64,000 nucleotides of DNA, from the NCBI GenBank assembly GCA_021647885.1, contig JAKITV010000001.1, positions 124,001 to 188,000 of the forward strand. Reading direction: 5' to 3'. This stretch comes from Flavobacteriaceae bacterium. GTDB lineage: Bacteria > Bacteroidota > Bacteroidia > Flavobacteriales > Flavobacteriaceae. The translations under genes were made by a program, and so were the position numbers. The notes under the pieces are model-generated. The model made no database searches. It had not been told where the DNA came from and worked only from the letters and a program-made list of their open reading frames with translations. Below, in pieces: positions 30,579 to 33,805 of the stretch; positions within the stretch are counted from its first letter, which is position 1, and each line of letters starts with the position of its first letter.

Positions 30579-30588
30579 TTATATTTGC
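30579..30588 (+). promoter_or_regulatory. Bacteroidota -7 element upstream of the PPIase gene
   Basis: TATATTTG matches the TAnnTTTG consensus and ends about 25 bases before the ATG at 30612. An in-frame TTG start at 30585 would lie inside this element, which argues that the ATG is the real start. No clear TTTG lies at the expected upstream distance. Confidence 0.55.
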
Positions 30589-30611
30589 ACTCGAAAAATA
30601 AAACAACAACT

Positions 30612-31544
30612 ATGCAAGACGGTTTATACGCAAAATTTAATACAACAAAAGGCAAAATTTTAGTCGCTTTAGAATACCAAAAAACACCAGGAACAGTTGG
30701 TAATTTCGTTGCACTAGCTGAAGGAAATCTAGAGAACTCAGTAAAACCACAAGGAACACCATATTACGATGGATTAAAATTCCATCGTGTTATTCCAGAT
30801 TTTATGATACAAGGTGGTTGTCCACAAGGCACAGGAACTGGTAATCCAGGATACAAGTTTGATGACGAGTTCCATCCAGATTTAAAACATGATGCACCAG
30901 GTGTGTTATCTATGGCAAATTCAGGACCTGGAACTAATGGAAGTCAGTTTTTTATCACTCATATTGAAACCTCATGGTTAGATGGAAAGCATACAGTTTT
31001 TGGAAAAGTTATTGAAGGACAAGATATTGTAGATGCTATTACACAAGAAGATAAAATAGAAAGTTTAGAGATTGTAAAAGTAGGAGCAGAAGCAGAAGTC
31101 TTTAATGCTATTGAAGCTTTTAGAACATTTGAAGGTTCGCGAGAGAAAAAATTAGCCGAAGCAAGAAAAGCTGCTGAAGCTGAAATGGAAAAACTTGCTG
31201 CTGGATTTAGTAAAACCAAAAGTGGGTTACGTTACCAAATGCTTCAAGAAGGAAACGGAACAAAAGCCGAAAAAGGGAAAACAGTGTCTGTACATTATAA
31301 AGGACAGCTTGCTGATGGTACTGTATTCGATTCTTCATACAAACGTAACCAACCTATAGATTTTGCTTTAGGAGTTGGTCAAGTAATTTCGGGTTGGGAT
31401 GAAGGTATTCAACTCTTAAAAGTTGGAGATAAAGCACGTTTCGTAATTCCTGGCGATTTGGCTTATGGTAGTGCTGGAGCTGGAGGTGTAATTCCACCAG
31501 ATGCGACTTTGATTTTTGATGTCGAGTTGATGGATGTGAAATAA
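30612..31544 (+). CDS. Peptidyl-prolyl isomerase, cyclophilin-FKBP fusion
   Basis: The 310-residue protein combines two unrelated prolyl isomerases. Residues about 5-150 are cyclophilin: [56 protein letters not shown] charged alpha-helical linker ([20 protein letters not shown]) leads to a C-terminal FKBP domain: [60 protein letters not shown]. No signal peptide is visible, so a cytoplasmic folding role is likely. The ATG at 30612 is preferred to the in-frame TTG at 30585. Confidence 0.9.
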
Positions 31545-31548
31545 GCAG

Positions 31549-31589
31549 AGAACCAATTTTTGCAATCAAAAATTGTGCGAATCGCTTAT
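31549..31589 (+). repeat. Direct repeat copy 1 with internal hairpin
   Basis: The first of two 41-base copies (39 of 41 identical by eye; second at 31632-31672). Each copy contains CAATTTTTG and its exact complement CAAAAATTG four bases later (31554-31575), a 9-bp stem, followed by a shared tail GAATCGCTTAT. It starts 5 bases after the PPIase stop codon, so copy 1 could also affect the mRNA 3' end. Confidence 0.75.
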
Positions 31590-31631: not shown

Positions 31632-31672
31632 AGAACCAATTTTTGTAATCAAAAATTGTGTGAATCGCTTAT
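31632..31672 (+). repeat. Direct repeat copy 2 with internal hairpin
   Basis: The second copy of the 41-base repeat, 83 bases downstream of copy 1, differing at two positions (C to T in both cases). Between the copies lies a further imperfect hairpin, CCCAAATTGC pairing with GCAAGTTTGGG (31590-31613). The pair sits beside the RAYT element at 31702. Confidence 0.72.
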
Positions 31673-31727
31673 GTTGAGCAAAGCCGAAACATCTTTGTTG
31701 CATTTAGTAATAAGTTTTTTGAAAGAG

Positions 31728-31756
31728 CTATTGTTGGTGTTTTTCACCAACAATAG
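31728..31756 (+). repeat. REP-like palindrome, copy 1
   Basis: CTATTGTTGGTG, loop TTTTT, CACCAACAATAG: a perfect 12-bp stem with a 5-base loop, 31 bases from the stop codon of the transposase gene. Its left flank (31702-31727) also matches the flank of the half copy at 33181. Confidence 0.85.
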
Positions 31757-31787
31757 ATATACAAAATAAATAGAATTAGTTAATTTT

Positions 31788-32327
31788 TTAATTGGTATAA
31801 GTGTCAAACCGAGTTAAAAAACTAAATTCATCACCTAAATCTTTATAAAATTTAGCAGATGAAAACTTATAATCTACTTTTTCTTTACACAAGCCAGCTT
31901 TTACAGGGTTATTATGAATATAATTTAGTTTTTCAATAATAATAGTATTATCATATAAATCAACACATAAAGGATTTCTTTGCCAAAATTGATATGTTCT
32001 ATCTTTTAAATCTACTCGAAACTCATCTAAAACTTTTGGATGGTTAATTTCTAAATCTCTTTTTATTTTTTGTGCTGTAAACTTCATAAAGCTTAACTGT
32101 GTGTGTTTTAACGAATATAACTTTGTAGGACTCCAAACTAAATGGATATGATTATCCATTAAAACATAACCAAATAAATTAACTCTTTTTTCTTGAACCA
32201 AATATTGCAATGATTCTATAATAATCATTTTGTATTTCGTTGGCTTTAATAGTTTTTTCCAATCGAGGATTGTTGCTGTATAAAATTGTGGGCATTCTTT
32301 GGTAGGGTTAAACTTATGGAGTTTCAT
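31788..32327 (-). CDS. REP-associated tyrosine transposase (RAYT, Y1/HUH family)
   Basis: A 179-residue single-domain Y1 transposase of the IS200-like superfamily. The HUH metal motif is present in MDNHIHLVWSP (around residues 58-68) and the catalytic Tyr is expected in LNYIHNNPVKAGL (around 133-145). The intact motifs suggest it is functional. RAYTs are thought to mobilise short REP palindromes rather than themselves; the palindromes beside it at 31728 and 32350 are its likely substrate. No second frame or accessory gene is associated. Confidence 0.88.
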   Translation of the reverse strand: MKLHKFNPTKECPQFYTATILDWKKLLKPTKYKMIIIESLQYLVQEKRVNLFGYVLMDNHIHLVWSPTKLYSLKHTQLSFMKFTAQKIKRDLEINHPKVLDEFRVDLKDRTYQFWQRNPLCVDLYDNTIIIEKLNYIHNNPVKAGLCKEKVDYKFSSAKFYKDLGDEFSFLTRFDTYTN

Positions 32328-32349
32328 TTATAAAAGTGTTACTTAATTA

Positions 32350-32374
32350 ATTGTTGGTGGAAAACACCAACAAT
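32350..32374 (-). repeat. REP-like palindrome, copy 2 (inverted)
   Basis: ATTGTTGGTG, loop GAAAA, CACCAACAAT: a perfect 10-bp stem, 23 bases upstream of the transposase start. Read on the minus strand the loop is TTTTC, close to the TTTTT loop of copy 1 on the plus strand, so the two are oriented toward each other around the gene. Confidence 0.85.
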
Positions 32375-32400
32375 GGCGAATCCCCTTTACCTACTCGACT

Positions 32401-33090
32401 TTAATATACGATTTCCGTTAGTATTAATCTTTTAATAAAATAATCCGTGTAGTTTACATTTGCCATAATCATTTCATATGCCACAAAACTTGGATGTCTT
32501 TTTCTTCCAGTTTTTTTCATAGCTTCTAAATAGTTTAGCACGAATTCATTTTCTCTTGAGATAGAATCAAGGGCTTGTTGATATTTTCCATAATGATTAA
32601 AATCTACAGTTTTCATTTGTTTATTCATATAAACAGTATCAAACATTCCTTCGTGATAAGATGCTGATGATGATGTATTTGTACCCATAACGAATTCTCC
32701 ATCGGGTTTTTGGTATTTCCTCCTTGTTTTCAAATGTAGAATTCCGTTGTTTAGCTCAACCCAAACAGAATCAGTAATTCCATAGACTTGTGATTTTAGT
32801 TTGCTACTATCGAAGATTTTTCTACTTTTTAGGCTCATTCTAGGATTTCCCCATTCTGAATTGTTGCTGTTCTCAATTTCAATAATAAACTTCTTATAAG
32901 CTTGTTCAATACTTAAATCAGGATAGTTTTTCTTCAAAAAGGTATCTTCAAAATCTTTAACTGAATAAGTCAGTATTTCACTGTTTTCTTTTCCTAAAAT
33001 ATTCTCAAATTCCGTTATTGGTTTATTAGTTTCATTGCCCGAACAATTGACGATTATAAATAGGATTATGAATATTTTGATGATTTTCAT
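32401..33090 (-). CDS. Uncharacterised lipoprotein
   Basis: A 229-residue protein with a lipoprotein signal: a short basic start, the hydrophobic FIILFIIVN, and a lipobox Cys at about residue 16 (IVNC then SGN). The mature protein has no family known to me; it holds an acidic N-terminal part (KDFEDTFLKKNYPDLSIEQA) and a mixed C-terminal region. It lies between the RAYT unit and a third REP-like half copy, so it may be part of a variable segment. Function not assigned. Confidence 0.7.
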   Translation of the reverse strand: MKIIKIFIILFIIVNCSGNETNKPITEFENILGKENSEILTYSVKDFEDTFLKKNYPDLSIEQAYKKFIIEIENSNNSEWGNPRMSLKSRKIFDSSKLKSQVYGITDSVWVELNNGILHLKTRRKYQKPDGEFVMGTNTSSSASYHEGMFDTVYMNKQMKTVDFNHYGKYQQALDSISRENEFVLNYLEAMKKTGRKRHPSFVAYEMIMANVNYTDYFIKRLILTEIVY

Positions 33091-33180
33091 TTGGAATTCA
33101 TATGTATGCTAACTTGTTATATGTGTTACGAATATACAATTTACTACTTTAAATTTTTTGGATAAAAATATCTTTATTAT

Positions 33181-33225
33181 ATTTAGTAAAAAGTTTTAGA
33201 GAGAGAGCCATTGTTGGTGTTTTTC
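33181..33225 (+). repeat. REP-like left-end copy 3, half palindrome
   Basis: This 45-base segment aligns with 31702-31745: ATTTAGTAA, then AAGTTTT, AGAG, and the shared core ATTGTTGGTGTTTTTC, with a few substitutions and one single-base indel. The right arm (CACCAACAAT) is absent, so it cannot form the hairpin. It is a decayed or partial copy. Confidence 0.75.
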
Positions 33226-33247: not shown

Positions 33248-33805
33248 TTAGTTCTTCCACTTAATATTACAACCAATGCTAGGCTTTTGTATTGTTATGT
33301 TTTCTTCATCTTTAAGTAAACAATCCAAAGCATGTCTTAAATCGTTTCCTGTAACAGGAATGCCATTTTCTGGACGAGAATCGTCTAATTGTCCACGATA
33401 AACTAATTTTAATTCGGCATCAAACACATACAAATCTGGAGTGCAAGCAGCATCATATGCTTTTGCTACACCTTGAGTTTCATCGTATAAATAAGGAAAA
33501 GGATAACCTACTTCTTTAGCGTGAATCTTCATTTGTTTTGGACCATCTTGAGGGTATGTTTTAGCATCATTGCTTGAAATAGCAATAAAACCTATATCTT
33601 TTTTAGCATAATTATTCGCTATTTCAACTAATTGAGAGTTTACATGAACTACAAAAGGACAATGGTTACAAATAAACATAATAACAGTGCCTTTGCTGCC
33701 TTTAAGCTTTTGTAAGTCAGCATATTCGTCGTTAATAGTGTTTAATAAATTAAAGGTTGGAGCAACTGTTCCTAAAGGAATCATATTAGAGGGAGTTCTT
33801 GCCAT
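33248..33805 (-). CDS. Thioredoxin-like/redoxin family protein
   Basis: A 185-residue cytoplasmic thioredoxin-fold protein of the AhpC-TSA-like group. The redox motif is CNHCPF (around residues 51-56), with GTVIMFICNHCPFVVHVNSQ spanning the active-site helix, FIAISSNDAKTYPQD after it, and cis-proline region CTPDLYVFDAELKLVYRG. An extra pair of Cys residues lies near the C-terminus (ALDCLL; SIGCNIKWK). The partner is unknown. It is divergent from csaA, with 47 bases between starts. Confidence 0.86.
   Translation of the reverse strand: MARTPSNMIPLGTVAPTFNLLNTINDEYADLQKLKGSKGTVIMFICNHCPFVVHVNSQLVEIANNYAKKDIGFIAISSNDAKTYPQDGPKQMKIHAKEVGYPFPYLYDETQGVAKAYDAACTPDLYVFDAELKLVYRGQLDDSRPENGIPVTGNDLRHALDCLLKDEENITIQKPSIGCNIKWKN

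Follow-up and report, generated by a model that had tools for sequence, protein, structure and literature searches.

This report concerns a locus within a window of 64,000 nucleotides from a Flavobacteriaceae bacterium (assembly GCA_021647885.1, contig JAKITV010000001.1, positions 124,001 to 188,000 of the forward strand; the positions given below are those of the window), in which the gene of a REP-associated tyrosine transposase (RAYT) lies between two copies of a repetitive extragenic palindrome (REP). The locus is best explained as a REPtron of Bacteroidetes RAYT subclass 2.6, namely a single-copy RAYT bracketed by its inverted cognate REPs, whose conserved 5′ bases (the foot) are directed outward, and we give this reading a probability of roughly 0.86. 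It rests on the anatomy of the locus, the comparison with relatives, the conservation of the foot, the covariation of base pairs, the dispersed REP doublets and the co-occurrence of hairpin and enzyme. The locus is real and well supported and belongs to a kind that is already known; what is added here is the GCC nature of the foot, REP doublets among close relatives, a repeat population that is reduced in the genome of the window, and a third copy that has the form of a half unit.

The RAYT (TnpA_REP) gene (31788..32327, minus strand) is an open reading frame (ORF) of 179 amino acids. The REP downstream of it (31727..31756, plus strand) contains the hairpin 31730-31754, ATTGTTGGTG-TTTTT-CACCAACAAT, with a perfect stem of 10 bp, which can extend to 12, in 25 nt; the REP upstream of it (32350..32377, minus strand) contains the hairpin 32350-32374, which on the minus strand reads ATTGTTGGTG-TTTTC-CACCAACAAT, again 25 nt with a perfect 10-bp stem. 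The two hairpins, 33 nt 3′ of the stop codon and 22 nt 5′ of the start codon, respectively, have the same stem in opposite orientation and, as judged from loop and foot, both feet are directed away from the gene; the upstream foot is GCC (32377-32375), while that of the plus-strand REP (31727-31729) is GCT, not GCC. With up to three mismatches allowed, the hairpin pattern has two matches in the 64 kb, and shuffled sequences have a mean of 0.01, none of 100 containing two. The first interpretation of this DNA, made from its letters alone (the sequence-only reading), had proposed an intact HUH/Tyr RAYT between two hairpins of the same stem in opposite orientation, and the ORF, the stems, the shuffles and the invariance of H60, H62 and Y136 bear this out.

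As to the protein, its length, its phylum and its HuH, W and Y motifs agree in placing the predicted RAYT in Bacteroidetes subclass 2.6. Table 1 of Quentin et al. 2018 (PMC6006769) equates this subclass with Bertels group 5 and gives for it Bacteroidetes, a median of 179 aa, the motifs NH[LIV]H, WQ and YIH[QN]NP and atypical secondary structures; the same source, in the parts that concern the subclass, describes a low copy number, a median HuH-Y distance of 82 residues and structures without GT[AG]G that have copies elsewhere in the genome. The window protein is like these in phylum, in its 179 aa, in low copy number, in its flanking structures without GT[AG]G and in the motifs NHIH (H60-x-H62), FWQ (W115-Q116) and YIHNNP (Y136), and the spacing from H60/H62 to Y136, 74-76 residues, is slightly below the median of the subclass. 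H60, H62, W115 and Y136 are invariant in 26/26 aligned sequences, that is, the window protein and 25 of the 54 retrieved RAYT loci; left out of the alignment were, among the stretches examined (numbered L, as genomes are numbered G and contigs C), L068, which has a stop codon, L058, L061 and L067, with frame breaks or partial matches, and other weaker or partial matches. The protein matches the NCBIfam model NF047646 (REP_Tyr_transpos) with 71 bits (E 9.1e-20). Its AlphaFold model, with a predicted local confidence (pLDDT) of 90.4, has as best PDB match 4er8, a RAYT with its REP hairpin, which we take to be an E. coli protein (E 9.6e-8, template-modelling scores 0.65/0.70, 18% identity), followed by the ISDra2 and IS608 transposases. 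In the tree of the retrieved relatives, for which the program warned of long branches, the window RAYT falls in a clade of 14 members with support 97/98, the flavobacterial six being grouped with 99/99, and its nearest relatives are from Flavobacteriaceae. The gene is single-copy in its genome, the only other match at E 1e-5 being 36% identical; a single-copy HUH-tyrosine transposase of this kind is domesticated. That other match is a second RAYT-like gene (G000:C22:77224-77724, G000 being the window's own genome), 36% identical over 159 residues, and no inverted hairpin pair of the window kind was found in its 3.2-kb locus (L006). Seven Y1_Tnp matches at E 10 or better, the window RAYT included, are present in this genome, two of them strong, on C43 (with an internal stop) and at C67:204871-205227.

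The REP itself is strand-asymmetric. Its GCC foot, on the 5′ side, is followed by two bases that vary but remain paired, by TGTTGGTG, by a loop rich in T (TTTTT or TTTTC) and by CACCAACA. The stretches examined are a selected subset of the hairpin matches listed for the relatives, and foot and pairing were counted preferably in 56 exact-core hairpins, from stretches chosen by a foot-free pattern or by the presence of the RAYT gene or of a neighbouring redoxin-like gene (33248..33805, minus strand, in the window), which also served as synteny marker. In this set GCC stands 5′ of the strand with the T-loop in 49/56 and in mirror position in 0/56, and the two bases above the foot pair in 52/56 and 51/56, against 38.0 and 21.5 expected from independent columns; copies within one genome are related, so that these counts are not independent events. 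A looser set of 63 hairpins, with GCC foot in 56/63 and one mirror case, includes L112, L171 and L172, chosen by a GCC pattern, and L170, chosen by BLAST, all of which are absent from the set of 56; a set of 134 hairpins mixed in loci found by the GCC pattern, and the 56 were preferred to it.

The foot can also be followed beyond the closest relatives. Beside the RAYTs of the 14-member clade it is found on one side in 42/46 hairpin matches, some of which merge a half unit with a full REP; the misses include the GCT of the window and one match in sequence that looks coding, and no hairpin match was obtained for L054 in this count. Stem and loop read TTGTTGGTG-TTTTY in the flavobacterial rows, TTGTTGGTC-TTRTT in L050, L057, L058 and L061, and GGTTGGTG-TTYT in L055 and L056, the arms of which recur in L051-L053 with loops of about 20 nt. 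By these comparisons the clade of RAYTs keeps the GCC foot, and it is stem and loop that vary with the enzyme. The idea that the RAYTs of L051-L054 have half units only was rejected, as in L051 and L052 the same arms pair across loops of about 20 nt (L053 has these arms too and L054 looks alike); it arose from a hairpin finder limited to loops of at most 8 nt. No GTAG foot was found, the feet in the window being GCC and GCT, and the RAYT gene is flanked by REP-like structures without GT[AG]G. Among 84 RAYT loci scanned, an inverted hairpin pair is present in 20 by a narrower rule, distant RAYTs having mostly none or another hairpin. Indeed, L017, L018, L019, L025 and L033, with RAYTs 32-39% identical, carry inverted pairs of another hairpin, whose core is GCGAAGT or CAAAGTCTCCCGACTTTG; this may be a second type of REP in Flavobacteriaceae, one without the GCC foot.

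Besides the window's own genome, close RAYTs (at least 66% identical) are found in G138, G301, G302, G304 and G334 (G303, being the same genome as G138, was counted once), and hairpins are present in 6/6 of these genomes, as opposed to 4/297 genomes without a close RAYT. With at most one mismatch there are 26 hairpins in G138, 17 in G301, 15 in G302, 2 in G304 and 2 in the window's genome, and G334 has 4 exact ones. The hairpin screen covered 397 genomes of the family, 7 of which contain the exact hairpin; 299 of the 397 were also searched for the protein, and the rates refer to them: two have a close RAYT, both with the hairpin, and 297 have none, four of these with the hairpin. In these four (G013 with 16 copies, G168 with 3, G024 and G097 with 1 each, that of G097 without foot) no RAYT match was found at E 0.01. 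Among genomes of the same genus, G300 has the first 29 RAYT codons at a contig end, 90% identical, and GCCNNTGTTGGTG at 14 places, followed by the 3′ arm at 11, and in G088 and G292 neither a RAYT match at E 0.01 nor a hairpin was found. Two isolated REPs, one of them imperfect, occur in G299, where no RAYT match was found. The comparison supports the view that across relatives the hairpin goes with this RAYT; the proposal that copy number would track the enzyme is upheld in this respect (6/6 versus 4/297), and the 16 copies of G013 count against it. In that genome, L162 (G013:C8:130700-132700) contains six REPs in the same direction, several of them 88 nt apart, with no RAYT match in the genome, and in L163 a long GTAA microsatellite lies beside another REP.

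In relatives the REPs also occur as doublets (REPINs), counted here in the chosen stretches. Pairs with outward feet and short spacers number at least 7 in G138 (88-94 bp), at least 5 in G301 (82-86 bp), at least 6 in G302 (77-89 bp), at least 3 of 64 bp on three contigs of G300 and at least 1 of 97 bp in G013, the spacers being common to the copies within one genome; in three further entries, of 31 bp, there is one REP, which has a foot at either end. Other neighbouring REPs are arranged head-to-tail in 22 cases (15 in G013) and feet-inward in 7. No doublet within 90 nt was found in the window stretch.

These distributions bear on two other explanations of the locus. It might be an ordinary insertion sequence (IS) of the IS200/IS605 type, delimited left and right by the hairpins and transposing as a whole with the gene, as the fold matches to the IS608 and ISDra2 transposases and the position of the hairpins on both sides of the gene would allow. 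Nevertheless, the hairpins are inverted, unlike the ends of IS608-type elements, which are not known to be inverted copies; the genome has one copy of the gene, the next match being 36% identical; in G300 the start of the RAYT gene adjoins the same redoxin gene; what disperses in relatives is hairpins without the gene; and the motif is the Y---NP of class 2 (YIHNNP), not the Y---Q of subclass 1.1. Having found neither Y---Q nor multiple near-identical gene copies, we rejected the IS explanation, which is very improbable. Still less credence is due to the idea that the hairpins are terminators of convergent genes, unrelated to the transposase. They are indeed short intergenic stem-loops near gene ends, but the same stem family stands on both sides of the RAYT across the clade, inverted and with the GCC foot outside the stem, doublets and arrays occur, and the hairpin is rare without a close RAYT (4/297 genomes); clade-wide inverted GCC-footed pairs, doublets and rarity led to its rejection.

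If the locus is a REPtron, analogy with E. coli TnpA_REP leads us to infer that the RAYT would bind the single-stranded REP hairpin, that the GCC foot would serve as guide where other RAYTs use GTAG, that Y136 would act as the nucleophile cleaving next to the REP, and that rejoining of the strands at low frequency would disperse REP doublets.

Several observations weigh against the REPtron reading. On the protein side, the 71 bits against NF047646 are below its curated cut-off of 80, and this model describes RAYTs in general rather than defining the subclass; the match to Pfam Y1_Tnp, 16.4 bits, is below the cut-off of 23. On the repeat side, the window's own genome, a draft of 2.59 Mb in 67 contigs that is 87% complete, contains two full copies of the hairpin, both at the RAYT locus, which taken alone are a gene-flanking inverted repeat; copies dispersed elsewhere, the mark of a REP family, are found in relatives and not there. 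One of the two hairpins of G304 has a mismatch and no GCC unit nearby. The strongest counter-example is G013, with 16 exact hairpins, GCC in 6/6 of those examined and no RAYT match at E 0.01, which shows that REPs can be present where this RAYT is not, owing to its loss or to another enzyme. Finding the hairpin only beside this gene had been named in the sequence-only reading as an outcome that would speak against it, and in the own draft genome this is what is found. There, a third match (C53, three mismatches) has no GCC foot; the half pattern GCCANTGTTGGTGTTTT, with one mismatch, is present at four places, three of them at the locus and one on C22; and GCCNNTGTTGGTG is present at six, two at the locus and four elsewhere without hairpin or T-loop. 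The C22 match, recurring in G292, is probably coding sequence, and the corresponding half unit of G292 (L108), whose stretch is also in the window genome (L189), was rejected as a REP, being shared and probably coding. The REP population of the window's genome is at its minimum: a gene-flanking pair and one 5′-half REP were found.

This last unit is the third copy, which the sequence-only reading had described as a decayed end sharing 44 bases with the left end and lacking its right arm. The copy is real and does lack the 3′ arm, but the likeness is longer, 31687-31745 and 33166-33225 being 83% alike over about 59 nt: it takes in the flank 5′ of the downstream REP (31687..31726, plus strand), repeated at 33166..33206, plus strand, and then foot, 5′ arm and loop. 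No further copy of the duplicated flank was reported in the genome. Judged by its sequence, the third copy may better be read as a 5′-half REP (33207..33225, plus strand, with GCC foot, 5′ arm and loop TTTTTC), a recurrent form broken at the loop edge, than as a decayed end. In the window it is separated from the redoxin gene by 22 nt, which align with the post-redoxin sequence of the REP-free G088 with a score of 10, reached by 4/5000 shuffles, and do not align with that of G300 (score -1, reached by 3285/5000); from 33226 onward the window is alignable to G088. The redoxin stop codon of G300 is followed, at a distance of 46 nt, by an intact REP of the same orientation. It follows that either an ancestral REP lost its arm in the window lineage or the two have separate origins.

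On one account the third copy began as a complete REP whose 3′ arm disappeared through ordinary mutation or deletion, the shared 59 nt being an old segmental duplication unrelated to the RAYT, and we rate its chances a little short of even. The intact REP of G300 beside the same redoxin gene, the likeness of the flanks of the first and third copies, which were thus duplicated together somehow, and the decayed full REP known in G304 (L122) are in its favour, so that decay keeps a place in the interpretation; yet no mutated arm is recognisable at the third copy, the 22 nt at the break align with the REP-free G088, and the position of the break, at the loop edge, is that of the half units in other genomes. 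These were sought in 41 stretches, nearly all selected by hairpin or RAYT. Among 17 left-half matches, 12 have a GC[C/T/A] foot, GCC in 10 of them, and no 3′ arm; the others comprise the decayed arm of L122 and four footless matches that may be due to chance. Eleven of the 12 half units run through the loop-edge C, one ending a base earlier, and a further foot follows 0-6 nt behind 11/12, all but the unit of the window. Five genomes contribute these half units (G000, G301, G013, G334 and the one that contains L047), with five units in L047 and two in tandem in L169, so that independent events are fewer. In L051-L054 half-like units lie 32-35 nt 5′ of full units.

Mirror units, i.e. right halves, gave six raw matches in the 41 stretches, four of them unrelated and two full REPs with mutated 5′ arm. 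Genome-wide, the right-half pattern has 39 matches outside known hairpins, among the matches listed, in six genomes; in three of them a full REP has a mutated 5′ arm, and 36 have neither arm nor foot, some recurring like coding sequence, as compared with 18 in a reversed-pattern control, an excess that is partly unexplained. Since this excess exists, and the right half has no foot by which to identify it, the asymmetry between left and right is weakened, and for this reason lower odds were given to the proposal that the half REP is a product of the RAYT, which would cut at the edge of the loop (a CA step, TTTTYC|A) and join the strand elsewhere, with GCC as a new class of guide replacing GTAG; we consider it doubtful. 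On that proposal the strand cut at the loop edge would join new DNA or the 5′ side of another REP, giving head-to-tail arrays of half units before a full REP, and in the window the half REP would be fused to the native sequence behind the redoxin gene, an order of events that we infer. Half units would also be produced by replication slippage on hairpins or by nuclease repair.

A putative lipoprotein gene (32401..33090, minus strand, 229 aa) has the upstream REP on one side and the half REP on the other, and the sequence-only reading had suggested that repeat movement enclosed it. The gene has no Pfam or NCBIfam family over cut-off, and the three redoxin loci compared (G292, G300 and G088) contain no match to it. 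Its capture between REPs appears unlikely and is not borne out: besides the position of the gene, the interval of 241 nt between two REPs of G300, which is without the gene and at whose end a short ORF resembling a signal peptide continues into the foot of the REP, would agree with it, but the sequence behind the redoxin gene differs among G088, G292 and G300, the interval being simply variable, and no footprint of capture was found, relatives of the gene having been compared at the three redoxin loci. The 241-nt interval shows variability, not capture. The ORF mentioned (L101 of G300, 2328-2375, starting ATG AAA AAA ATC GGA) continues in frame into the foot, as if a gene for a secreted protein had been cut there.

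On the other side of the RAYT, the convergent neighbour and second synteny marker is a gene (30585..31544, plus strand) that, from the look of its sequence, we take to encode a peptidyl-prolyl isomerase of the FKBP/cyclophilin type. In G088 the redoxin and isomerase genes are convergent neighbours about 2.55 kb apart, and no RAYT or REP was found between them; in G300 REPs stand behind the redoxin gene and another palindrome behind the isomerase gene, on separate contigs. The window genome and G300 appear to share the RAYT site and to differ in repeat load. Behind the isomerase gene of the window, a palindromic repeat, AGAACCAATTTTTG-NAAT-CAAAAATTGTG with the flank GAATCGCTTAT, is present at 31549-31589 and 31632-31672, with a different hairpin, CCCAAATTGCAAAGCAAGTTTGGG, between the two. 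Related sequence is found at G000:C4:29160-29309 and behind the isomerase gene of G300, where stem bases differ on both arms. The second RAYT-like gene, on C22, was rejected as owner of these palindromes, its 3.2-kb locus being without them.

With respect to known systems, the sequence-only reading had called this a clear flavobacterial RAYT-REP case, and that it is, with a RAYT and cognate inverted REPs, although the Bacteroidetes subclass was already published (PMC6006769, Table 1), and a mention of RayT genes in Chryseobacterium (PMC11194056, in the portion seen) means that flavobacterial RAYTs are already in print. The structures of subclass 2.6 are there termed ‘atypical’, without consensus and with copies elsewhere in the genome, whereas the present ones are marked by a GCC foot and by basal pairs that covary, form doublets in relatives and include 5′-half units, and none was found beyond the locus in the window's genome. 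E. coli TnpA_REP (group 2), with its REPs and bacterial interspersed mosaic elements, is similar in fold (4er8 being the best match), in the 5′ foot and in the inverted REPs around the gene (PMC6006769, in part), but has a GTAG foot and a bulged stem (PMC8266576, as excerpted) instead of a GCC foot and a perfect stem. The group 3 REPtrons of Stenotrophomonas and Marinomonas share perfect short palindromes with a 5′ foot and differ in the GTAG foot and the protein group, half units not being mentioned in the excerpts of PMC8266576; according to these, the E. coli and group 3 enzymes recognise single-stranded REPs, the foot has a role, cleavage is at CT, in Marinomonas also at CA, and there a change of foot shifts the cut site predictably. 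REPINs as described in the abstract-level text of PMC3116915 are inverted REP doublets dispersed within a genome, as in the relatives of the window; here the doublets are few (at least 3 to 7 per genome in the stretches examined), have a GCC foot and were not found in the window's genome. The GTAG- and CGTC-tagged superfamilies (PMC3733652, in the part consulted) are likewise short palindromes with a fixed tag at one end, neither tag being GCC, and the absence of a dedicated transposase is reported for CGTC REPs. GCC-footed REPs, REPINs and half units in Bacteroidetes are not named in the titles and abstract openings found; the supplements of PMC6006769 may list these REPs.

RAYTs are domesticated transposases of unsettled function, and their biochemistry, as far as the excerpts of PMC8266576 go, concerns the GTAG-footed REPs of E. 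coli, Stenotrophomonas and Marinomonas. The clade described here offers a compact set in which a differing foot, GCC, is constant while stem and loop vary, and the pair formed by the window genome and G300, together with REPs that exist without the enzyme, makes the guide role of the foot and the dependence of REP dispersal on the RAYT directly testable. Should the recurrent half units prove to be products of cleavage, a step of the mechanism would be visible in genome sequence, and the scattered and half-length copies in relatives hint at how such repeats move and break.

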